Shown piece after piece: positions 12,671 through 50,949 of a DNA stretch of 64,000 nucleotides. The notes below the pieces were generated by a model. The model made no database searches and was not told the DNA's origin. It saw only the letters and a program-made list of their open reading frames with translations. The translations under genes and the position numbers were made by a program. This DNA comes from Halopelagius inordinatus. GTDB lineage: Archaea > Halobacteriota > Halobacteria > Halobacteriales > Haloferacaceae. The first letter of the stretch is position 1; each line of letters begins with the position of its first letter. The stretch lies in assembly GCF_900113245.1 (NCBI RefSeq), contig NZ_FOOQ01000002.1, forward strand, positions 372,001-436,000, read 5' to 3'.

Positions 12671-12693
12671 CAGATTACGAAATTCGTAATCTG
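12671..12693. promoter_or_regulatory. 23-bp perfect palindrome between carA and the Lrp-type gene
   Basis: CAGATTACGAA and TTCGTAATCTG flank a single central A, a perfect inverted repeat with 11-bp arms. It ends 27 nt before the Lrp-type ATG, so it covers that gene's BRE/TATA region, and it starts 48 nt upstream of the carA ATG. Loose half sites (TTCGTA near 12664, ACGAATTC near 12635, TTACGA near 12624) lie between it and carA. An operator for the adjacent regulator is the obvious inference. Confidence 0.7.
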
Positions 12694-40237: not shown

Positions 40238-41278
40238 ATGAAGGCAGTCCAATTCGCGGAACACGGCGACCGAGACGTCATCGAGTACGGCGAGTTCCCG
40301 GACCCGGAACCGGGGCGCGGGGAAGTGGTCGTAGACGTGAAGGCGGCCGCTCTGAACCACCTCGACATCTGGACGCGGCGCGGACTGCCCGGACTCGACT
40401 TGGAGATGCCGCACGTCCCCGGAAGCGACATGGCGGGCGTCGTCTCCGAACTCGGCGAGGGCGTGACGCGTTTCGAGGAGGGCGACCGCGTCGCTCTCAT
40501 CGCGGGCGTCGCGGGTGGCGGCGACGAGTTCTCCCGGCACGGCGACCCGACGTTGGCGCCGGACTTTCACATCATCGGCGAACACGTCCGCGGCGTGCAT
40601 TCGGAATACGCCGCCGTCCCCGCCGAAAACCTCGTTCCCGTCCCCGACGGCGTCAGGTGGGAAACCGCCGGGTCCGCGTCGCTGGTCTTCCAGACGGCGT
40701 GGCGGATGCTCGTGGACCGCGCCGACGTCGAACCGGGCGAGAAGGTTCTCGTCCACGGCGCGTCCGGCGGTGTCGGCCACGCGGCGGTCCAAATCGCCGA
40801 CTACGCGGGCGCGGAGGTGTTCGCTACGGCGTCCACAGACGAGAAACTGGAGTACGCGGCGGACTGCGGCGCGGAACACCTGATAAACTACGAGGACGAG
40901 GACTTTTCGAGTCGCGTCTACGAACTGACCGGAAAGCGCGGCGTCGACGTCGTCGTGGACCACATCGGCGAGGCGACGTACGAGGACTCCCTGAAGAGTC
41001 TGCGGAAGGGCGGCCGCCTCGTCACCTGCGGCGCGACGACGGGCGGGAACCCCGGCGCGGGTCTGAACCGCATCTTCTGGAACCAACTGCAGATAATCGG
41101 TTCGACGATGGCGACGCCCGGACAGGCCGACGACGCCCTCGAACTGGTCTGGGACGGCACCTTCGAACCGCGCGTCCGCGAAGTGCTCCCGATGAGCGAG
41201 ACGGCCCGCGCACACGAGATGATAGAGAACCGTGAGGGCTTTGGTAAGGTGGTCGTAATCCCCGACAGTGAACTCTGA
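40238..41278 (+). CDS. Alcohol dehydrogenase-family (MDR) oxidoreductase
   Basis: A 346-residue medium-chain dehydrogenase. GroES-like N-terminal half (MKAVQFAEHGDRDVIEYGEFP, NHLDIWTRRGLPG, PGSDMAGVV) and Rossmann half with VLVHGASGGVGHAAVQIA. Cysteines of the structural zinc site are absent and the catalytic zinc ligands are not evident, so it is nearer the zinc-independent quinone reductase or enoyl reductase branch. The substrate is unknown. A GATATTTAG box about 27 nt upstream supports a leaderless start. The next gene starts inside its last codons. Confidence 0.88.
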   Translation: MKAVQFAEHGDRDVIEYGEFPDPEPGRGEVVVDVKAAALNHLDIWTRRGLPGLDLEMPHVPGSDMAGVVSELGEGVTRFEEGDRVALIAGVAGGGDEFSRHGDPTLAPDFHIIGEHVRGVHSEYAAVPAENLVPVPDGVRWETAGSASLVFQTAWRMLVDRADVEPGEKVLVHGASGGVGHAAVQIADYAGAEVFATASTDEKLEYAADCGAEHLINYEDEDFSSRVYELTGKRGVDVVVDHIGEATYEDSLKSLRKGGRLVTCGATTGGNPGAGLNRIFWNQLQIIGSTMATPGQADDALELVWDGTFEPRVREVLPMSETARAHEMIENREGFGKVVVIPDSEL

Positions 41279-41612
41279 GGGCCACGACGAACGAAGTTCG
41301 TCGGCCAACCGGACGCAGTCCGATGGCGACGACGGCGGCTACGTCCACCGCCCGGACGGGACGCCCGGAACAGACGAACCCGAACCGACCGGATTCGGCC
41401 GAACCGGGTGGGGACTCGTGGGCGTGCTAGTGGTCTGTACCCTCGTCATCCCCGGCATCATCTACCTGCGGCCGACGTTCCTCGGGTCGTTCGGCGTCCC
41501 GTACATCGTGGCGTTGCTCATCCTCCCGTTGCTTCCGGCGGTCGTCCTCGGTCTGACGGCCGTCTGGTCCATGACCGGCGCGACGAACGGCGGACGCGTC
41601 GACGACGACTGA
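41268..41612 (+). CDS. Small membrane protein with a palindromic-element insert (hypothetical)
   Basis: A 114-residue protein. The first 45 residues are hydrophilic and Ser/Gly/Asp-rich; two membrane helices follow (TGWGLVGVLVVCTLVIPGIIY and YIVALLILPLLPAVVLGL) and a short acidic tail. The start is GTG 41268, 11 nt inside the end of the MDR gene, so they are co-transcribed. Codons 7-19 (DERSSSANRTQSD) are encoded by a double palindrome that also occurs in an unrelated hydrolase near 50.6 kb. Confidence 0.65.
   Translation: MNSEGHDERSSSANRTQSDGDDGGYVHRPDGTPGTDEPEPTGFGRTGWGLVGVLVVCTLVIPGIIYLRPTFLGSFGVPYIVALLILPLLPAVVLGLTAVWSMTGATNGGRVDDD
41286..41322 (+). repeat. Double-palindrome element, copy 1 (inside a CDS)
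   Basis: GACGAAC-GAA-GTTCGTC (7-bp arms), a 7-nt spacer, then CGGAC-GCA-GTCCG (5-bp arms). The whole is read in frame as DERSSSANRTQS. A second copy with the same architecture and frame is at 50638-50676. Confidence 0.85.
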
Positions 41613-41640
41613 CTCTCGTCTCCTCGTTTTGCGGTCCGAC

Positions 41641-41664
41641 ATAAGCGTTTTCGGCAACGCTTAT
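41641..41664. promoter_or_regulatory. Inverted repeat over the promoter of the DUF5802-like gene
   Basis: ATAAGCGTT (41641-41649) and AACGCTTAT (41656-41664) form a perfect 9-bp inverted repeat with a 6-nt spacer. The right arm contains the TTATAC TATA-like box (41661-41666), about 32 nt before the ATG at 41696. An operator or overlapping divergent promoter signal is inferred. Confidence 0.55.
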
Positions 41665-41695
41665 ACCCGTCCATGTGTGAGAACATCACGCACAG

Positions 41696-42046
41696 ATGTT
41701 CGAGCAGTTCTCAAGCGGGTACTACCTCGGCCGGTTGTACGTCGAACCGTACGACGGCGAGGTCCCCGCCATCCACCGAACGGACCACGAACGGGTCAAC
41801 GAGGAACTCTACGCCGACGAGGGCGTAACACGACTCGACGCGCCCCTCGTCATGAAGCTAGAGCAGGCACACATCCCCGTCCTCGGTGACGAGGCGGTAC
41901 CCTCCGGAACGCTCGCGGTGCCGAGTTCGTTCGCCGACGAGAGCCTGCCGGACGACCGGGACGTCCTCCTCGCGAAACGTGAGCGCGCGGCTGAACTCCT
42001 CCGGTACTCGGGCTACAAGTTCGGTGACGACGCCGCCGTGACGTAG
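41696..42046 (+). CDS. DUF5802-like small protein
   Basis: A 116-residue soluble acidic protein, MFEQFSSGYYLGRLYVEPYDGE at the start, with APLVMKLEQAHIPVLGD and VLLAKRERAAELLRYSGY. I recall this signature as the haloarchaeal DUF5802 family; function unknown. It is preceded by a TATA box within an inverted repeat, so its transcription may be specifically regulated. Confidence 0.78.
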   Translation: MFEQFSSGYYLGRLYVEPYDGEVPAIHRTDHERVNEELYADEGVTRLDAPLVMKLEQAHIPVLGDEAVPSGTLAVPSSFADESLPDDRDVLLAKRERAAELLRYSGYKFGDDAAVT

Positions 42047-42154
42047 CGCGCATGGTCGCTACGTCTCGCGGGGTCGAAGACGAGACGCGAGAGCGTGCGC
42101 GTCGGCCGCACGGTCCGAACCGCGTCCCACGCGAGGTGAGAATCCAGCCATCGT

Positions 42155-42376
42155 TCAGAAGAGATAGGAGAGACCGAGGGCGACGAGGCAGACGCCGATA
42201 AACCGATACGCCCAGACGACGGCCCGGGAGGGTTCGGACCCCTCCGAGCGAGAGCCGCGTAAGAAGTCGAATCCGAAGCGGTGGACCCGTCTCGGCAGGG
42301 CGACGTACGCGACACCGAGAACCGCGAACCCAACCCCGGCGAACTGAACGAGTGCAGTCACGCGAAGCGGGTTCAT
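42155..42376 (-). CDS. Small two-helix membrane protein (hypothetical)
   Basis: A 73-residue protein with a helix near the start (TALVQFAGVGFAVLGVAYVAL), a basic and acidic cytosolic loop, and a C-terminal helix (YRFIGVCLVALGLSYLF). No family was recognised with confidence. It converges with the DUF5802-like gene and is divergent from the Vms1-like gene. Confidence 0.6.
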   Translation of the reverse strand: MNPLRVTALVQFAGVGFAVLGVAYVALPRRVHRFGFDFLRGSRSEGSEPSRAVVWAYRFIGVCLVALGLSYLF

Positions 42377-42556
42377 CCTGCGAGACGTTGAATCCGGCGG
42401 ACTGAGATAGCGTCGCGCGCCGACTCCGCCCTCGCGAACGCGAGTCGGTCGGTTCTCGAACCGTCGCGCTCGGCGGCGTTCGTGCGTCTCTCCGCCGTTC
42501 GCGGAACGCGGCGAGTCTGAGCAACTCTGAAGTACCCCCGGTCCGCGCGTCGAACC

Positions 42557-43465
42557 ATGCTGGACGAGTTGCTGGGGCGCGCCGAACTGAAAGAACGAAT
42601 CGAGGAGTTACAGGAGGAGAAGAGACACCTCGAACGCCGCGCCGAGGCCGAGGAGGAACGGCGGAGCGAGGCCGCCCGCGAACGACAGGAGGCGGAGACC
42701 GAGATAAACCGGCTCGAAACCCGCGTCGAGGAACTCGAAGACAGAGTCGAGCGACTCTCCGCGGACGGCGAGGCCGAAATCGAGTTTCGCGGCACCGAGG
42801 CACTCCGCGGCGACCGGTTAGAGGAGGTTCTCTCCCGTCTCGACTCTCTCGGCACCGGTCCCGAGGGTGCGCTCTCGGCGATGGTGGAGAAACACCCCCC
42901 GGAGTCGGTGGAAGACGCACTCGGCGAACGGGCGACTCTCGTCCGCCGCGCCGCGCCGTGTCTCGTCTACACCGACGACGCCGGAGTCGTCTCCGCCGTC
43001 CTCGAACCGCCGACGCCGCCCGCCGAGTTCGACCGGTGGGGGTCGTCGTTCCGAATCGACCGGTCGTGGTTCCGCCCCGAAGACTCGGTCCGGGTGGCTC
43101 TCGTTCGCTCGGACCTGTTCGCACTCGGTCGCTTCGACGGCGAGGAGGTCACCCTCGTCGACGACGTGGAGTCAGACGTGATGAACGCCCACTCGAAAGG
43201 CGGGTTCTCGCAGGCGCGATTCGAACGCCGGCGCGACGAACAGGTGTCGAACCACCTCGACCGCTCGAAAGAGGTCATCAGGGCGCACGCGGGCGACGAC
43301 GACGACGGAAGCGACACGCTCGTCGTCCTCGGCGAGCGAACCGTCCTCGGCGAGTTCGAGGAGTTGGCGGACCACCGCTCGACGGTGGACGCCTCCGGAG
43401 AACCCGAGGAGGCACTCCGAGAGGCGGTTCGAGAGTTCTGGACGACCCGGCTGTACCGCCTCTGA
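42557..43465 (+). CDS. Vms1/Ankzf1 family peptidyl-tRNA hydrolase
   Basis: A 302-residue protein. An N-terminal coiled coil (residues 5-70) precedes an eRF1-like catalytic domain. The key motif is SKGGFSQARFERRRDEQ, with the candidate catalytic Gln219 in the position of the eukaryotic GxxQ motif. Vms1/Ankzf1 proteins cleave peptidyl-tRNA on stalled large subunits in ribosome-associated quality control, so an archaeal rescue function is likely. No NEMF/Rqc2 homologue is visible nearby. It is a single transcription unit. Confidence 0.82.
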   Translation: MLDELLGRAELKERIEELQEEKRHLERRAEAEEERRSEAARERQEAETEINRLETRVEELEDRVERLSADGEAEIEFRGTEALRGDRLEEVLSRLDSLGTGPEGALSAMVEKHPPESVEDALGERATLVRRAAPCLVYTDDAGVVSAVLEPPTPPAEFDRWGSSFRIDRSWFRPEDSVRVALVRSDLFALGRFDGEEVTLVDDVESDVMNAHSKGGFSQARFERRRDEQVSNHLDRSKEVIRAHAGDDDDGSDTLVVLGERTVLGEFEELADHRSTVDASGEPEEALREAVREFWTTRLYRL

Positions 43466-43585
43466 ACCGTCGTCGTTCTCCGAGTCGCATCGGTCGTCTC
43501 TCGCCGCCATCGAACCAGTAGTTCCGTGATAGCACGGCTCACTGCACGGTTATCCCCGCCGGGAACCAATGTATAATGAATAATA

Positions 43586-44455
43586 ATGTCAAAAGTAGCG
43601 GGCGTCGAATCCGGGGAAGAGCGACGGCTGTCGATTCCGCTCGAACCCACTGGGACGACGGACGCGGTCGCGAGGATAGTCGATTCCTCCGTCGCCACAG
43701 ACAGCGTCGTCGCCACGGCGACGATAGTGACGGACGACCCGGTGCGGCGCGTGGAGGTCGACTGGGGAGACGGGGAGACGGACGTCGTCACCCGTCGTCC
43801 GGGACTGTTGACGAGAGACCGACCGGCGCACGGCGGTGACCCGTTGCCGGACGGGACGTATCAGCTGACGCACGCGTACGCGGTGTCCGATGACGGGAGG
43901 CCCTTCGACCACTCCGTGCTGTTGCGGGTCGACGACGCGGACGGCGGCGTCGATTTCGACGTTCACAGAATCACTCTGACGCCGCGGTACAAAGTGACGC
44001 ATTACCCCATGACGGTCCGACTCAAGCACGGGTGCGATTCGTCCCTCGAACCGGGGAGCGAGTTCGACATCCGCCAAACCGTCGGCGGAGACGTCGTGAA
44101 CCAGTGGGAGTGGTATCCGTCGAACAACTTCTTCGGCACGTCACAGAGCTTCCGGTTGGACGGAAGCGGCGTGACGCGAGAGTTCGAACGCCCGCCGCTG
44201 TCGGAGGGCGGCGGCGTCGAAGCCGTGAGCTTCGAATTCACCGAGAGAGACCCGTTGTGGGACGATCTGGTGCGGATATATCTCTACGTCGGACTGGACC
44301 ACAGAGGCTACAGCGGATACTTCAGCGAACGCGTCGAGGACGAGGCGTCGGGAGACGGATGTACCATCGTGTACAGTTACTCGAAGGAGATGGAGCTACT
44401 AGTTCCGCTTCCCGCGGGCGACGACCCCGCGTTCTCCGGGGAAGTTTTCGCGTGA
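43586..44455 (+). CDS. Ig/PKD-like hypothetical protein
   Basis: A 289-residue acidic protein without signal peptide or membrane segments. Residues 45-110 resemble a PKD-like beta-sandwich (VRRVEVDWGDGETDVV, TYQLTHAYAV). The C-terminal half has many aromatic and beta-rich stretches (VVNQWEWYPSNNFFG, VRIYLYVGLDHRGYSGYF). No family was recognised. The lack of a secretion signal is odd for a PKD-like fold. The upstream region is AT-rich (GTATAATGAATAATA just before the ATG) and slightly lower-GC than its neighbours, possibly acquired recently. Confidence 0.65.
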   Translation: MSKVAGVESGEERRLSIPLEPTGTTDAVARIVDSSVATDSVVATATIVTDDPVRRVEVDWGDGETDVVTRRPGLLTRDRPAHGGDPLPDGTYQLTHAYAVSDDGRPFDHSVLLRVDDADGGVDFDVHRITLTPRYKVTHYPMTVRLKHGCDSSLEPGSEFDIRQTVGGDVVNQWEWYPSNNFFGTSQSFRLDGSGVTREFERPPLSEGGGVEAVSFEFTERDPLWDDLVRIYLYVGLDHRGYSGYFSERVEDEASGDGCTIVYSYSKEMELLVPLPAGDDPAFSGEVFA

Positions 44456-44539
44456 ACGGCGACTTCCCAGCGGAGACGGTGGGTCTGCGGGGTCGAAACA
44501 CCCGAAATTAAGCCCCCGGTCGCCGTCGTCTGAGGCACG

Positions 44540-45595
44540 ATGACTACCACACGGACCGACGGCGGCAGCCCGGAACGGGTCGTCGTGCTCGCACACGAGA
44601 AGTTCCCCGAACGCGCGAAGACGGCCACCGGCGTCCTCAAATACGCCGACTACGACGTGGTCGCGGTGCTCGACCGGGACAACCCCGGTACCTCCGCGTC
44701 GGACCACAGACGCGACCTGCCGGACGTCCCCGTCGTCGCATCGATGGACGACGCGCCCGACGCCGACGCCTTGCTCGTCGGCATCTCGCCCATCGGCGGC
44801 GAGTTCGACGAGACGTGGCGCGACGACGTCCGAACCGCCATGGAACGCGGCTGTGACGTCATCGCCGGTCTGCACTACTTCCTCTCCGAGGACGAGGAGT
44901 TCGTCGAACTCGCGGACGAGTACGGCGTCGAACTGAACGACGTGCGAAAGCCTCACGACGACCTGACCGTCGCGCAGGGCCGGTCCGCCGACGTGGACGC
45001 CGACGTGGTTCTCACCGTCGGCACCGACTGTTCGGTCGGCAAGATGACCGTCTCCCTGGAACTGGTCGCGGCGGCGCGCGAACGCGGCATCGACGCCGGG
45101 TTCATCCCGACGGGGCAGACGGGCATCATGATAGCGGGGTGGGGGAACCCCGTCGACCGGGTGGTCAGCGACTTCACCGCCGGCGCGGTAGAGGAGATGA
45201 TTCTGGAAGTCGGCGACGACTACGACGTGCTGTTCGTGGAGGGACAGGGAAGCATCACCCACCCCGCCTACTCCGCCGTCACCTGCGGTATCCTCCACGG
45301 CGCGATGCCCGATGCGATGGTCCTGTGTCACGCCGAGGGGCGCGACGCCATCCACGGCTACGAGGAGTTCGAGATACCGCCCGTCTCGGAGTACGTCGGC
45401 CTCTACGAGAACCTCGCCGCGCCCGTCCACGAGGGGTCCGTCGTCGCGGGTGCGCTGAACACCTCCGGCGTCGAGGACGACGGCGCGGCGCGCGACGCCG
45501 TCGAGTCGTACGCGAGTTCGCTCGGCGCGCCCGCAACCGACGTGGTTCGCTTCGACGCCGACGAGATCCTCGACGCCGTGGTGGAGGAGAACTGA
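44540..45595 (+). CDS. dgcN: DUF1611 protein (DgcN-type N-acetyltransferase candidate)
   Basis: A 351-residue protein. The N-terminal Rossmann-like domain (VVVLAHEKFPERAKTATGVLKYADYDVVAVLD) and C-terminal P-loop domain (LTVGTDCSVGKMTVSLELV, then IPTGQTGIMIAGWG) are the DUF1611 signature. In marine bacteria DgcN, of this family, acetylates D-glutamate, and DgcA then converts the product to the L form. Here the next gene is an enolase-superfamily epimerase starting on the stop codon (TGATG, 1-nt overlap), exactly the DgcN-DgcA arrangement. The D-Glu role in this archaeon is inference. Confidence 0.85.
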   Translation: MTTTRTDGGSPERVVVLAHEKFPERAKTATGVLKYADYDVVAVLDRDNPGTSASDHRRDLPDVPVVASMDDAPDADALLVGISPIGGEFDETWRDDVRTAMERGCDVIAGLHYFLSEDEEFVELADEYGVELNDVRKPHDDLTVAQGRSADVDADVVLTVGTDCSVGKMTVSLELVAAARERGIDAGFIPTGQTGIMIAGWGNPVDRVVSDFTAGAVEEMILEVGDDYDVLFVEGQGSITHPAYSAVTCGILHGAMPDAMVLCHAEGRDAIHGYEEFEIPPVSEYVGLYENLAAPVHEGSVVAGALNTSGVEDDGAARDAVESYASSLGAPATDVVRFDADEILDAVVEEN

Positions 45596-46638
45596 TGGCG
45601 CTGACGACGGAGTTCGAACGGGCGTCGTTTCCGCTCGCGGACGACTTCACCATCGCCCGCGGGACGCAGACCGAAGCCGAGAACGTCGTCGTCCGAATCA
45701 CCGACGACGGCGGGATGACGGGCGTCGGCGCGGCGGCCCCCTCCGAGCATTACGGCGAGACGGCAGACACCGTCGAAGCGGTCCTCCCCGCGTTGCTTCG
45801 CGACGTCGAAACCGTCGGCGACGCCCACGCGATAGCGCGAATCGAGCGGCGGATGGCGGAGACGGTCAACGACAACCCGGCGGCCCGCGCCGCGGTCAGT
45901 ATCGCACTCCACGACTTGGCCGCGAAACGCCTCGGCCTCCCGCTCTACCGTCAGTGGGGGTTAGACGCCGACGACTGCCCGCCCACCTCCTTCACCATCG
46001 GGCTGGACGAAACGGAGCGAATCAGAGAGAAGACGGCGGCGGCCGTCGACGCGGGCTATCCGGTCTTGAAGGTGAAGCTCGGAACCGACCGCGACGAGGA
46101 GATAGTCGAAGCGGTCCGCGAGAGCGCACCCGACGCGACGATTCGCGTCGACGCGAACGAGGGGTGGACGCCCCGCGAGGCGGTTCGGAAGTCGGAGATG
46201 CTCGCGGAGTACGGCGTCGAGTTCGTCGAGCAACCGGTCGCCGCCGAGAACCCCGAGGGGCTGAAGTTCGTCTACGAACGGAGTGCGCTCCCCATCGCGG
46301 CCGACGAGTCCTGCGTGACGCTCGAAGACGTGCCCGCCGTCGCAGACCGGACGGACATCGTGAACCTGAAACTGATGAAGTGCGGCGGCCTCTCGGAGGC
46401 AAAGCGGATGGTCCACGCCGCCCGCGCGCACGGGCTGGAAGTGATGCTCGGTTGCATGGTGGAGTCGAACGCCGCCATCGCCGCCGCCTGCCACCTCGCG
46501 CCGCTTCTCGATTACGCCGACCTGGACGGTGCGCTCCTCCTCGACGAAGACGACTACGGGGGCGTGCCTATCGAAGACGGACGGATTCTCCTCGACGACC
46601 TGAACCGGAGCGGAACCGGCGCGCGGCGGACCGACTGA
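45595..46638 (+). CDS. dgcA: Enolase-superfamily epimerase (DgcA / dipeptide epimerase type)
   Basis: A 347-residue member of the muconate lactonizing enzyme branch. Acid-base lysines are Lys159 and Lys161 in PVLKVKLG and Lys262 in LKLMKCGG; metal ligands are Asp186 (VDANEGW), Glu212 (VEQPVAAENP) and Asp237 (ADESC). This pattern fits L-Ala-D/L-Glu dipeptide epimerases and N-acetyl-glutamate epimerases such as DgcA. Translationally coupled to the DUF1611 gene by a 1-nt overlap, so the pair probably processes one substrate. The specificity is not proven. Confidence 0.88.
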   Translation: MALTTEFERASFPLADDFTIARGTQTEAENVVVRITDDGGMTGVGAAAPSEHYGETADTVEAVLPALLRDVETVGDAHAIARIERRMAETVNDNPAARAAVSIALHDLAAKRLGLPLYRQWGLDADDCPPTSFTIGLDETERIREKTAAAVDAGYPVLKVKLGTDRDEEIVEAVRESAPDATIRVDANEGWTPREAVRKSEMLAEYGVEFVEQPVAAENPEGLKFVYERSALPIAADESCVTLEDVPAVADRTDIVNLKLMKCGGLSEAKRMVHAARAHGLEVMLGCMVESNAAIAAACHLAPLLDYADLDGALLLDEDDYGGVPIEDGRILLDDLNRSGTGARRTD

Positions 46639-46669
46639 GGCGTCTTCGGTCTCCGCACCTCGTTCGCCC

Positions 46670-48235
46670 TTACTCTCGGTCCCACGTCGCGAACGCCCGT
46701 CCGGTCGCCGCCTTCTCTCCGTACTCTCTTTGCATCGCGCGGACGGCGTCGGGGAGGGCGTCGCCCGCCTCTAACCGGTCGCGGACCCGAGCGCGTTTCC
46801 ACGCGCTCGGCGACGTGTGCGCCGCGCTCTGTCGGGCCTCGATGGGCGAGAGCAGCCACTCCGCCGCGTCGTCGAAGACGCCCAACTCGCGCAGGCCGTG
46901 TCGGGCGAGCGAGAACACCTCGTCGCGGACGGCGGGCGTCGCGTCGATTCGGTCGCCGTGGTTCCCGACCCACCGCAGGTCGGCGTCCGGGCCGTCCGCG
47001 ACGGCGGCGTAAAACGAGTCTCGGGCGTCCGCCCACGGGAGCGACTCCACGGGGTGGTCCGCGACGACGACGCCGTGGACGAGTCCGGCGACGAGCGCCT
47101 GCATCCCGACCGTATCGCGGACCGTCGGTTGCGTCGGGAGCGGTCGGTACTCGATTCGGACCGACGCGTCGTCGTTGTCGGGGCCCGTCGTCCGTCCGTC
47201 CCCGTCGTGGGGAACGTCGCCGCCGAAGACCGGCCGGACCCACCGCCAGAACGTGCCGCGCTTCGTGACGAACTCGGGGATAGAGGCGGCGTACGAGCCG
47301 TCCGCCTCCTCGTCCTCGCCGTCGTCGCTCGCGTCCGAGAGGACGGGCGCGAGCGTCTCGTCCGCGACGATTCGTTCGACGACGTCCTCCACGTCGCCGT
47401 AGTCCTCGGGAACGCGACATTTCTCTGCCCCGTCCACGTTGACCGAGCGTTCGAAGACCGGGACGCGACACTCGTGGGGCGTCTCCGCGAGTACCTCCTC
47501 GGCGTCGAGTCCCTCGTAGCGGTCGGCGGGGAGAAACGGCGAGTTGGCCGAAAGCGAGAGCACCGGCCCCATCGTCCGCGTCGCGACGTTCAGATACCGC
47601 GGGAGGTCAGTCGCCGTCGGAATCTGTAGATGCGGTTGGATCGACGTGGTCAGAGACTCCACGAGGATAGAGCGAGCGTCGTCGAGTCCCGGAAGCCCCA
47701 TCGAGATTCGACCGTCCGCGCGCGTCCGAATCGCGTCGTCCAACGCGACGTAGCGCGGAATCGGGCGCATGTGTTCGGCGCGAAACACGCCGTCTGTCAC
47801 CGCTCCGGCGTCGAGGTACGCCTCGGTGCCCTCCGCGGGCGGTATCGTCCACATCCCGTCGAGGACGACGCGTCGGTTCTCCTCGTCGAGCACCGCGCGA
47901 GCGCTCGAAAGCGCCGCCTCCAAGGCCGCCGCCTGCCGCCGGAACCCGGTTTCGGCCACCGAGTCCGGGTGCGTGTGCAGTTCGAGGTTGTGGACGCCCA
48001 ACTCCCGACTGCAGTGCGGAGCGTCGAACGCCGCCTCCGGGACGGCCGCGGGACGTCCCATCTCGTCTACGGCGTACGCCTCCAGTTCGAGCCCCACCGC
48101 GAAGTCCCGGTTGTCGAGTCGGCCCGAGCGGACGTCTTCGAGTACGTCGGCGGCCTGTGACTCGACGCGGCGGTCGAACTCGGCTCTGGTCTCTGGGTCC
48201 CGCGCGCGCCGGACCGCCTCGGTCACGTCCGTCAT
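46670..48235 (-). CDS. Glutamate-cysteine ligase-like (GCS2 superfamily) protein
   Basis: A 521-residue soluble protein. Resemblance to GCS2-type gamma-glutamyl ligases: VGLELEAYAVDEMGRP near residue 47, LGVHNLELHTHPDSV, then IQPHLQIPTATDLP, LSLSANSPF and VRIEYRPLPTQPTV. Haloarchaea use gamma-glutamylcysteine as a thiol, but their main GshA is shorter and this protein may act on another amine. It converges with the epimerase gene with a 31-nt gap, so is not in that operon. Confidence 0.65.
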   Translation of the reverse strand: MTDVTEAVRRARDPETRAEFDRRVESQAADVLEDVRSGRLDNRDFAVGLELEAYAVDEMGRPAAVPEAAFDAPHCSRELGVHNLELHTHPDSVAETGFRRQAAALEAALSSARAVLDEENRRVVLDGMWTIPPAEGTEAYLDAGAVTDGVFRAEHMRPIPRYVALDDAIRTRADGRISMGLPGLDDARSILVESLTTSIQPHLQIPTATDLPRYLNVATRTMGPVLSLSANSPFLPADRYEGLDAEEVLAETPHECRVPVFERSVNVDGAEKCRVPEDYGDVEDVVERIVADETLAPVLSDASDDGEDEEADGSYAASIPEFVTKRGTFWRWVRPVFGGDVPHDGDGRTTGPDNDDASVRIEYRPLPTQPTVRDTVGMQALVAGLVHGVVVADHPVESLPWADARDSFYAAVADGPDADLRWVGNHGDRIDATPAVRDEVFSLARHGLRELGVFDDAAEWLLSPIEARQSAAHTSPSAWKRARVRDRLEAGDALPDAVRAMQREYGEKAATGRAFATWDRE

Positions 48236-48285
48236 TTCCTAACTGTCAGCACTCCGTTGAATTGAGGTTTGCGGCGCGGCGCCTC

Positions 48286-49350
48286 TCAGTCGAGGTTCTC
48301 GCTTCGGTTCTCCGACCGAAGGATGAACGGTCCGATAGAGAGCGTCCGCTTGGCCGCCGTGGCGATGCGGAGGATGAACGATATCAGTATCGTGAAGGGG
48401 AAGACGGCGACGGCGACGGCCGCCGAGACGGTCCAAACCACGTTGCCGACGCCGAAGACGGTTCCCGTGATGGTTCCGGGGTCGTCGATGTAGAGGATGG
48501 CCGCAGTCGAGACGACGAGCGACGGCACCGCCGCGTACATCATCGCCCGCGAGAGGTTGATGAGTTCCCACTGGAAGTACAGCGTCTTGAAGTGCTCTCT
48601 GGCCGGGCCGAAGTACGTCAGCACGTTCACGAGTTCGTCGAACGCCTCCGAGACGGCGTCGGGGAGGTCCTCGTGTTCGTTTCTGAGACGTCGCGCCTGG
48701 TATATCTTCCACGAGTAGTTGAAGTCGAGTGCGGCGAACAGGACGTCGAACGTCCCGAACTGCCCCTCCTCCAGTTCGTCGGACACCTCCGAGGCGTTCC
48801 CGCGCAATCCGGCGACGTAGTCGTCGATGCGCGGCCCGAGTTCGTCCTCCCCGCTGAGGTCGTTCGCCGAGACTGCGTCGCCGAGTGCCTCCGCGCGGTC
48901 CGAGACTGCGACGACGAGAGCCCTGAGGAACGCGGAGGGCTCCGGCGGTGCCGCGGTGACGCTCAAGTCGTCCTCGACGTCGCGGCGGAACTCCATCGCG
49001 CCGGACATCCGCTGTCTCTGGTCGCCCAACGGACCGAGTTCCTGCGAGAGAACGAGCGAGTTGATGGAGACGACGAGCGTGACGCCGGTGATAGTCGCGG
49101 TCAGAAGCGCCTGAAACACCGTCTCGATGGGGTCGGACGACGCGACCACCGACTGCAGCGGTACCGGGTCGATGGCGCCGAGAACGACCAGCGACCCGAA
49201 CACGAAGAGGAGGGGGACGGCGGCGACGGCCCACCGATTCGCGTACAAAAGCAGCCACAGTTTCACTCTGTGTTCGCTCGCGCGTTCGCGCATCGTGTCG
49301 CTCGGTTCGCCTCCGTCCGACTCGGCGTCGTTCTCGTCGTCGAAACCCAT
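48286..49350 (-). CDS. Hypothetical haloarchaeal membrane protein
   Basis: A 354-residue protein with four hydrophobic segments: two near the N-terminus (LWLLLYANRWAVAAVPLLFV; FQALLTATITGVTLVVSI), a long cytosolic-type acidic middle domain (about residues 115-260), and two near the end (MMYAAVPSLVVSTAAILYI; VSAAVAVAVFPFTILISF). No family was recognised. ATG 49350 is chosen because GACTTTATC about 30 nt upstream forms a promoter box; a start 48 nt earlier is less likely. Located 56 nt after the PspA gene, it could be a membrane stress partner. Confidence 0.7.
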   Translation of the reverse strand: MGFDDENDAESDGGEPSDTMRERASEHRVKLWLLLYANRWAVAAVPLLFVFGSLVVLGAIDPVPLQSVVASSDPIETVFQALLTATITGVTLVVSINSLVLSQELGPLGDQRQRMSGAMEFRRDVEDDLSVTAAPPEPSAFLRALVVAVSDRAEALGDAVSANDLSGEDELGPRIDDYVAGLRGNASEVSDELEEGQFGTFDVLFAALDFNYSWKIYQARRLRNEHEDLPDAVSEAFDELVNVLTYFGPAREHFKTLYFQWELINLSRAMMYAAVPSLVVSTAAILYIDDPGTITGTVFGVGNVVWTVSAAVAVAVFPFTILISFILRIATAAKRTLSIGPFILRSENRSENLD

Positions 49351-49406
49351 CTGTCGTGAGAGACGTTCAGCGACGCGCGATAAAGTCGTCGTGGCCACTC
49401 GGGCCG

Positions 49407-50228
49407 TTACGCGTCGTCTTCGTTCCGCAGTTCTTCCAGTTCGGCTTCGACGTCTTCGTCCGCGACGTCGACGTCCGAGGACTCTACGTCCGCCGTCTCG
49501 CCGTCGTCGCTTTCGGTCTCCGGCGGGGAGCCTTTGCCCATATCGGCTTTCAGCGTCTCCAGTTCGGTGTCGACCTCTCGCGAGGACCGTCCGGATTCGA
49601 GTTCGCGGTCGATGGAGTCCTTATCGGAGAGGGCGTCGTCGAACGCGCCCGTGTCGGCGAGTTCGTCCATCGCCGCCGAACGCGCCTCCATCTCGTCGGT
49701 GCGGTCCTCCGCGCGTTCGAGTGCGCGGCCCACGTCGGCCATCTCGTCGCCGACGCCGGACATCGCCTCGGAGACGCGCGTGGAGGCTTCCGCCGCGTCG
49801 TACCGGGCCTTCATCGTCTCCTTTTTGGTGCGGAACTCCTCGATGCGGTTCTGAAGTTGGTTCTTCTTGTCGACGAGGCTGTCTTGGGTCTCTTGGAGGT
49901 TCGCAATCTGGGTCTCTAGGTCCTCTATCTGGTTCATCTTCGATTGCTTCTTCTCTAACGCCTGCCGCGCCAGGTCGTCGCGGTCCTGATTGACGGCTTC
50001 GCGCGCCTGTTCGTTGTGTCTCTCGACGTTCTCTTCGAGTCGGCGCTTTTGAATCTCCAGTCGCTTCTTTTGGGTCGTCAGGTCGGCGATACCCTGTTTG
50101 ACCTGCTGGAGTTCGTCTCGCATCTTCTCGTAGGAGTAGTCCAACGTCTCTCCGGGGTCCTCGGACCGATTGAGGATGGCGTTTATCTTCGACCGGATGA
50201 CGTACGACGTGCGCGAGAGGATTCCCAT
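49407..50228 (-). CDS. pspA: PspA/IM30 (ESCRT-III-like) family protein
   Basis: A 273-residue protein. MGILSRTSYVIRSKINAILNR forms the N-terminal amphipathic helix, followed by a long coiled coil (residues 30-165; QVKQGIADLTTQKKRLEIQK) and a Glu/Asp-rich tail. PspA proteins bind membranes and keep the bilayer intact; in halophiles they respond to membrane stress. GTTTTAAG about 27 nt before the ATG is a strong promoter box; the sequence just before the start (GGAGGT next to ATG) is too close to act as an ordinary ribosome binding site. The unknown membrane protein follows. Confidence 0.92.
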   Translation of the reverse strand: MGILSRTSYVIRSKINAILNRSEDPGETLDYSYEKMRDELQQVKQGIADLTTQKKRLEIQKRRLEENVERHNEQAREAVNQDRDDLARQALEKKQSKMNQIEDLETQIANLQETQDSLVDKKNQLQNRIEEFRTKKETMKARYDAAEASTRVSEAMSGVGDEMADVGRALERAEDRTDEMEARSAAMDELADTGAFDDALSDKDSIDRELESGRSSREVDTELETLKADMGKGSPPETESDDGETADVESSDVDVADEDVEAELEELRNEDDA

Positions 50229-50280
50229 ACCTCCTTTTTGGTCACGCCGGGCTTAAAACCTCACGCGAGAGAGAGGTCGT

Positions 50281-50949
50281 ATGGCCGAGACGGTACTCGT
50301 CCCCGGCGGCCGCGACGTTCGGGCATCGCTCGACGAGGCGGACGGAACGGACGCGACGGCGTGCGTCGTCGCCTGCCCGCCGCACCCCCAACACGGCGGA
50401 CACCGCGGCGACGACAGACTCGTCGCCGTGAGCGACGAACTGACCGCCCGCGGCGTCGATTGTCTCCGGTTCGACTACGGCGCGTGGGACGAGGGGCGCG
50501 GCGAGAAAGCGGACGCGACGAACGCCGTCGCGTGGGCGCGGGAGCGATACGACCGCGTGGGGCTGTTCGGGTTCAGTTTCGGCGCGACGACGGCGCTTCT
50601 CGCCGTCGCGGAGGGTGCCGACGCGGACGCGGACGCTGACGAGCGAAGCTCGTCATGCCGACGGACGCAGTCCGTCGCCGCCGTCTCCGCACTCGCGCCG
50701 ACGGCCCGCCTCGCGCAGGACTTAGACGTGGTCGCGTCGTTCGACGACATCCCGGTGCCCGTGCAGGTCCTCTACGGGACGCGCGACGATACGGTCGAGT
50801 GGGGTCCCGTGGTCGAACGCGCCCGCGAGACGCAGCAGTCGGTGGTGGAGTTCAGCGCCGACCACTTCTTCATCGGGCAGGCGGGGAAAGTCGCGGTTCG
50901 GGTGGCCGACTTCCTCCTGCCGTTCCTTCAGGTGGCGGACTCGCGGTAG
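50281..50949 (+). CDS. Alpha/beta hydrolase with an in-frame palindrome insertion
   Basis: A 222-residue hydrolase. Typical motifs: VVACPPHPQHGGHRGDD (oxyanion), LRFDYGAWDEG, nucleophile Ser in GLFGFSFGATTAL, then LYGTRDDTVEW (acid) and ADHFFIGQAG (His). It resembles the small dienelactone-hydrolase/COG2945 group. Residues 113-134 (DADADADERSSSCRRTQS) interrupt the fold between the nucleophile strand and the lid, and codons 120-132 are a double-palindrome element found also at 41.3 kb. Its product should still fold because the insert is in frame. The gene overlaps the end of the convergent membrane-protein gene by 22 nt. Confidence 0.82.
   Translation: MAETVLVPGGRDVRASLDEADGTDATACVVACPPHPQHGGHRGDDRLVAVSDELTARGVDCLRFDYGAWDEGRGEKADATNAVAWARERYDRVGLFGFSFGATTALLAVAEGADADADADERSSSCRRTQSVAAVSALAPTARLAQDLDVVASFDDIPVPVQVLYGTRDDTVEWGPVVERARETQQSVVEFSADHFFIGQAGKVAVRVADFLLPFLQVADSR
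50638..50676 (+). repeat. Double-palindrome element, copy 2 (inside a CDS)
   Basis: GACGAGC-GAA-GCTCGTC (7-bp arms), spacer ATGCC, then GACGGAC-GCA-GTCCGTC (7-bp arms). Read in frame it gives DERSSSCRRTQSV, nearly the peptide of copy 1 at 41286-41322 (DERSSSANRTQS), in an otherwise unrelated protein. Confidence 0.9.

Follow-up and report, generated by a model that had tools for sequence, protein, structure and literature searches.

The window considered here is the whole stretch of DNA that was analysed, 64,000 nt from the genome of the haloarchaeon Halopelagius inordinatus. Two of its genes, one for a small membrane protein and one for an alpha/beta hydrolase, each contain a copy of a double-palindrome element. 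Each copy comprises two hairpins with 7-bp stems and 3-nt loops, separated by a 5-nt spacer, and is 39 nt in total; the distance between the hairpins is constant in both. A first-pass annotation of the sequence had reported double palindromes at these places, and both are confirmed, with copy 1 slightly longer (39 nt, 41286-41324) than it had given. The features are as follows:

41268..41612, + strand: host gene of copy 1, small membrane protein, 114 aa, GTG start
41286-41324, + strand: copy 1, whole core, GACGAAC gaa GTTCGTC ggcca ACCGGAC gca GTCCGAT
41286..41302, + strand: copy 1, hairpin 1, GACGAAC-GAA-GTTCGTC
41303..41307, + strand: copy 1, spacer of 5 nt, GGCCA
41308..41324, + strand: copy 1, hairpin 2, ACCGGAC-GCA-GTCCGAT, second pair broken
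50281..50949, + strand: host gene of copy 2, alpha/beta hydrolase, 222 aa, marginal Pfam match to Peptidase_S15
50638-50676, + strand: copy 2, whole core, GACGAGC gaa GCTCGTC atgcc GACGGAC gca GTCCGTC
50638..50654, + strand: copy 2, hairpin 1, GACGAGC-GAA-GCTCGTC
50655..50659, + strand: copy 2, spacer of 5 nt, ATGCC
50660..50676, + strand: copy 2, hairpin 2, GACGGAC-GCA-GTCCGTC

Copy 1 lies near the start of its host protein, which has no match in Pfam. For the host hydrolase of copy 2, structure prediction without an alignment gives a mean pLDDT of 37. Translation of both hosts bears out the earlier observation that the copies are read in the same frame and yield nearly the same peptide (DERSSSANRTQSD and DERSSSCRRTQSV, of the type DERSSS..RTQS). 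The string CGAAGNTCGTC by itself is not rare in the window, with two occurrences found and 1.3 expected. The combined motif is rare: a covariance model of 60 positions built from 10 copies (R1) scores the two copies at 73 and 72 bits, while its next matches in the window are the reverse strand of copy 2 (24 bits) and, as the best unrelated match, one of 22 bits. Folded as single-stranded DNA, the 39-mers of copies 1 and 2 reach -10.3 kcal/mol (z -2.9) and -13.9 kcal/mol (z -4.4), respectively. The longest palindrome with a 3-nt loop in the window, a perfect 10-bp hairpin at 12671-12693 (CAGATTACGAAATTCGTAATCTG), stands outside the double-hairpin family.

A strict, exact pattern found just the two window copies in the genome of H. 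inordinatus. This apparent rarity was overturned by covariance-model searches, for which a second model (R2) was built from the 39-nt core alone of 50 copies. Counting listed places and merging strands, 37 distinct copies occur in the genome at E<=2e-4. Across the class, 284 of 391 haloarchaeal genomes, representing 66 of 86 genera, have one copy or more at E<=1e-4; copies per genome are lower bounds, as no more than 17 candidates were scored in each. Dozens of copies score between 45 and 88 bits. Thirteen bacterial control genomes, several of them high-GC, yielded no copy at E<=1e-4, and in viral contigs a loose pattern gave chance-like matches only and a stricter one none. The genome-wide search proposed by the first-pass annotation thus returned many further copies.

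The host genes are unrelated to one another and often encode core proteins, including PurF, PurH, FtsY, ValS, FolD, and ABC ATPases. With a looser pattern, the arrangement also turns up in further genera of the family, as well as in Halolamina, Halobaculum, and a Halococcaceae MAG. Its spacing is fixed, its frame is always the same, and the protein that holds it is nearly always a different one. From reading their sequences, we take these hosts to be an ABC transporter ATPase, an amidohydrolase, ArsA, an MFS transporter, FtsY, mercuric reductase, and a dihydrolipoamide-dehydrogenase-like protein. Hosts in other families include valyl-tRNA synthetase, FolD, histidine kinases, molybdopterin oxidoreductases, and a carboxylase subunit. 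The carboxylase-subunit site (LDLWFN) was set aside as a locus for study, being a variable-length loop with few true copies.

Several arrangements of the element are more complex. In H. inordinatus itself, several copies are clustered within 1.6 kb (L118, G000:C1:49064-50600), two of them adjacent. Tandem 15-residue units occur at four loci (L127, L137, L264, L251; for example DTVERSSTSNRTQSD DTAERSPTNDRTQSD DTAERSPTSNRTQSD), and the mercuric reductase of Halorubrum has a second insertion site, filled by SEERSPSGNRNAERSSN in L011 and SEGRSPSGNRTQSGD in L255 and absent in L012. Two tRNA genes flank a copy at L129, near position 1500, and the tRNA match of one of them is 109 nt long, which suggests an intron. 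The VEHGST motif of histidine kinases itself reads as a hairpin (GTCGAGCACGGCTCGAC) and is a possible origin of the repeat. Intergenic copies are found in Halorubrum, as tandem hairpin units within longer repeats. In these composites (L260, L267, L261, L268, L248-L250, L258, L259, L263, L266), several hairpins follow one another, spaced by TGGCA and edged by GACAGC; the composites sit in longer conserved blocks and might serve the element as a source or as an archive. Two of them (L260, L249) were compared with Rfam, giving no match.

When host flanks were searched in relatives, many sites proved to be empty. The sister species (G063) has clean 45-nt gaps at eight loci (L073, L076, L083, L088, L096, L099, L107, which is PurH, and L112) and comparable gaps at four others (L072, which is PurF, L080, L103, and L106). 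For PurF and PurH, H. inordinatus alone has a long matching span, which is short in the sister species and in more distant genomes. The short span in distant genomes indicates that the H. inordinatus lineage gained the segment. The comparison with homologues that the first-pass annotation had proposed gives a like result for the two window copies, each of whose host genes has relatives without the element. The sister species has no copy 1 (L186), and H. inordinatus is 48 nt longer there (VNSDEDGGY in the sister species vs VNSEGHDERSSSANRTQSDGDDGGY). Copy 2 is common to both species and absent in the more distant G007. Between copy 2 and its orthologue in the sister species (L183), the loops have changed and one paired G-C has become A-T; this swap could alternatively reflect independent insertion or conversion.

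The limits of the unit can be examined at an acetyl-CoA-synthetase-like (acs-like) gene of Halorubrum, where a span of 318 nt in 12 genomes corresponds to 273 nt in most others, a difference of exactly 45 nt (15 codons). The empty site reads CGC GAC GAC AGC GAC GGC and the filled site CGC GAC AGC [39 nt] GAC GAC AGC GAC GGC, as expected if 45 nt were inserted and no more than 3 nt (GAC) repeated. We provisionally describe the unit as 45 nt, comprising the 39-nt hairpin core and about 6 nt of GAC-NNN type at the edges. Left and right flanking 6-mers are more alike within a copy than between copies (permutation z 5.4), as a 6-bp target duplication would produce; the signal appears at length 6 only and comes largely from the central base of a single codon. 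A target duplication of 8 bp was considered first, but flanks of that length show no such likeness. A full 6-bp duplication is doubtful, being contradicted by the empty acs-like site and resting on a flank signal that comes mainly from one codon. On a tree of the flanks, the acs-like site needs 3 to 6 gains or losses, a figure that recombination within Halorubrum could raise.

The consensus of the element is GACGTY [GMCGAGC NNN GCTCGKC] NGSCM [RYCRGAC NNN GTCYGRY] GACGTCG. The loops are variable, with GAA and AAA the commonest in hairpin 1 and GCA in hairpin 2, and the left edge of Halorubrum copies is usually GACAGC. Across a set of 50 distinct copies, pairing is intact in 98% of the 700 pair cells. 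Both sides have changed together in 13 of 14 pairs, with 121 double-change cells; no shuffle reaches this, and the covariation is far above slid and shuffled controls, in a set whose figure is biased upwards because it came from a structure-aware search that favours intact stems. Changes in the stems are nearly all Watson-Crick. Since only 4 of the 700 cells hold G-T pairs, the pattern points to stems that would pair as DNA rather than as RNA.

Pairing appears to have a different fate once a copy is in place. The acs-like site provides a set of genomes selected through orthology, independently of the model; of its 168 pairs, 8 are broken, and compensation is seen in none. Judged from this site, stems seem to decay after insertion, which suggests that pairing matters for spreading and not afterwards. 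The covariation between copies would then reflect the spreading lineage, either because only well-paired copies multiply or because pairs are restored while spreading. Selection on the stems after insertion had been considered on the strength of a lower rate of change in arms (5 of 252 positions) than in loops (8 of 54; p 0.0004). That comparison drew mostly on model-chosen orthologues and was dropped in light of the decay in the acs-like set.

Placement within genes is strongly biased. Coding potential was assessed on both sides of each copy with our own codon-usage scorer. Among 76 in-gene copies, 69 are in frame +0 without a stop, two are in frame +0 with a stop, and five are in another frame or strand. 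The same frame and strand are therefore used in 71 of 76, compared with the one sixth expected for random insertion. For the 20 best copies from other families, frame +0 scores best in all 20 and the gene is convincing in 19; the stricter, two-sided rule places 15 of the 20 inside genes. Much of the frame bias arises because insertion occurs beside GAC, and GACGTC is mostly in phase 0 (74 of 84 sites in the window, with 4 intergenic). The target thus explains the frame bias in part, and selection must also be invoked for the strand bias. Read from its reverse strand, the element would encode a basic peptide, presumably unfavourable in an acidic halophilic proteome, whereas the inserted peptide is hydrophilic, of the type D-V-[AD]-E-[RQ]-x-S-[SA]-[AG]-x-x-T-Q-S-[GD]-D. 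Host proteins apparently tolerate the 15 added residues. The first-pass annotation had envisaged a mobile short element that picks coding-compatible sites. Its mobility is supported; site choice is better described as insertion beside GAC-type sites, nearly all of which are at codon phase 0 in these GC-rich acidic genomes, together with purging of other orientations.

Short palindromic repeats that lie in frame within proteins, and are tolerated there, are known from Rickettsia as RPEs. The element studied here works like RPEs, and also like the PATEs of haloarchaea, in a sense that is analogical and makes no claim of membership in either group. It shares with RPEs the presence of short palindromes in frame inside many unrelated proteins, their tolerance, and their absence in relatives. 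It differs in its archaeal host, its length of 45 nt, its two hairpins with 3-nt loops, its single dominant frame and strand, and its distribution across a whole class rather than one genus. The RPE-like, in-frame mobile element suggested by the first-pass annotation is supported by the many copies, the unrelated hosts, the one frame, and the empty sites in relatives; the likeness holds as a functional analogy and not as homology, and no sequence relation is claimed here. No dedicated transposase is known for RPEs, some of which belong to the superfamily of CGTC-tagged REPs, hairpin dimers that are sometimes intragenic and are not associated with a transposase (PMC3733652). The haloarchaeal element is likewise a hairpin dimer found in genes, and its GACGTC edges contain CGTC. 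However, CGTC REPs, which are reported in five bacterial phyla, are defined by stems of 8-9 bp, A-T first pairs, and loops of 4-5 nt (PMC3733652), whereas the haloarchaeal stems are 7 bp, start with G-C or A-T, and enclose 3-nt loops. The GACGTC edge is common but often target sequence, and Halorubrum copies carry GACAGC.

Other families of short repeats offer partial parallels. REPINs and GTAG REPs are also mobile units of two short hairpins, but they are mainly extragenic and carry GTAG and a RAYT, whereas the haloarchaeal element is mainly intragenic. Its consensus edges (GAC-GTY, GAC-GTC) lack the GTAG tag, and a search for RAYT (Y1 transposase, Y1_Tnp, PF01797) found no match in the H. 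inordinatus genome, which is 99.9% complete, while control genomes, including Haloferax volcanii, were positive. As for a MITE of a DDE transposon, the element is near-symmetric, but the 6-bp duplication suggested by its flanks is contradicted at the acs-like site. The nearest known kind in host and build is the PATE. PATEs and SMRs are transposase-free repeats described in Haloquadratum, but not as in-frame coding inserts (PMC3119063). PATEs share with the present element a haloarchaeal host, palindromes near both ends, and a length too short for a transposase. They have no clear target duplication, to be set beside the flank resemblance at 6 nt, and at most 3 nt at the acs-like site, seen here. 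The likeness is drawn from build and host. The first-pass annotation knew of no haloarchaeal equivalent, and in the literature searched, mostly outside subscription journals, no description of such an in-frame element in haloarchaea or other archaea was found either.

Taken together, comparative sequence data make a mobile element the probable explanation, one that is non-autonomous, dispersed in haloarchaea and recognised through its hairpins. Such an element would insert next to GAC. GAC is a very common codon of acidic proteomes and the unit spans 15 codons, so the frame would usually be kept, and insertions in other frames or strands would presumably be purged. An enzyme provided in trans would recognise the hairpins in their DNA form, probably as single strands, and through this recognition well-paired copies alone would spread. 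Most plausibly, this explanation takes the specific form of an IS200/IS605-type transposon reduced to its termini, that is, a very short PATE in which fused left-end and right-end hairpins are moved single-stranded by TnpA in trans; taken by itself, it is a possibility about which we are doubtful. GNA triloops are unusually stable in DNA. The excess of Watson-Crick over wobble pairing and the common GAA, AAA, and GCA triloops suit single-stranded DNA hairpins. Haloquadratum, in addition, has terminal-only PATEs of 52 bp in which the near-terminal palindromes are fused and a target duplication is lacking (PMC3119063). Weighing against TnpA are the missing Y1_Tnp in a genome with 37 copies, many of them absent from the sister species, and the lack of an adjoining transposase at the five loci examined.

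These same two negative results favour the main rival to an IS605-kind enzyme in trans, an enzyme-free origin by template switching during replication or repair. Hairpin strands would be copied into sites of GAC microhomology and the palindromes perfected by snap-back synthesis. Tandem 45-nt units (L127, L137), edges resembling GAC microhomology, and the one orthologous pair of copies that differs by a double pair change are in keeping with such a process. It nevertheless seems unlikely, as a sequence-specific consensus across the families of the class needs a spreading lineage rather than random palindrome formation, and the acs-like pairs decay rather than being perfected. A selected host function in the peptide or the mRNA hairpins, such as solubility at high salt, a protein linker, or control of translation or mRNA, could account for the single frame and orientation, the hydrophilic peptide, and the occurrence in core enzymes. 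We consider it improbable given the patchy presence and absence at the same site among close species, the unrelated hosts, the drift of stems and peptide at the acs-like site, the few G-U pairs, and the lack of an Rfam match. Chance resemblance, in which GC-rich, aspartate-rich coding sequence yields such hairpins unaided, is scarcely credible. Composition does produce model matches below about 25 bits, but not scores of 45 to 88 bits in dozens of copies that have no counterpart in the bacterial controls, high-GC genomes included. Covariation far above the controls speaks against chance too, and for well-scoring copies the exact 45-nt indels refute it.

With the mobile-element explanation preferred, a broader proposal may be put forward tentatively. 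The element may represent a class-wide archaeal family of in-frame, protein-tolerated palindromes that spreads via single-stranded DNA hairpins and an enzyme, and that stays in frame since its target codon, GAC, is so common. It would then be a parasite fitted to its hosts' codon composition. How RPE-like palindromes enter proteins has been an open question since their discovery in Rickettsia, a genus that is hard to manipulate genetically. Haloferax, Halorubrum, and similar haloarchaea can be cultivated. The many natural insertions described here lie in enzymes that can be assayed and have empty counterparts in close species, which makes both mechanism and tolerance testable. They also call for caution in reading haloarchaeal proteins, as many of the 15-residue ‘insertions’ in their enzymes would be mobile DNA rather than adaptations to salt.
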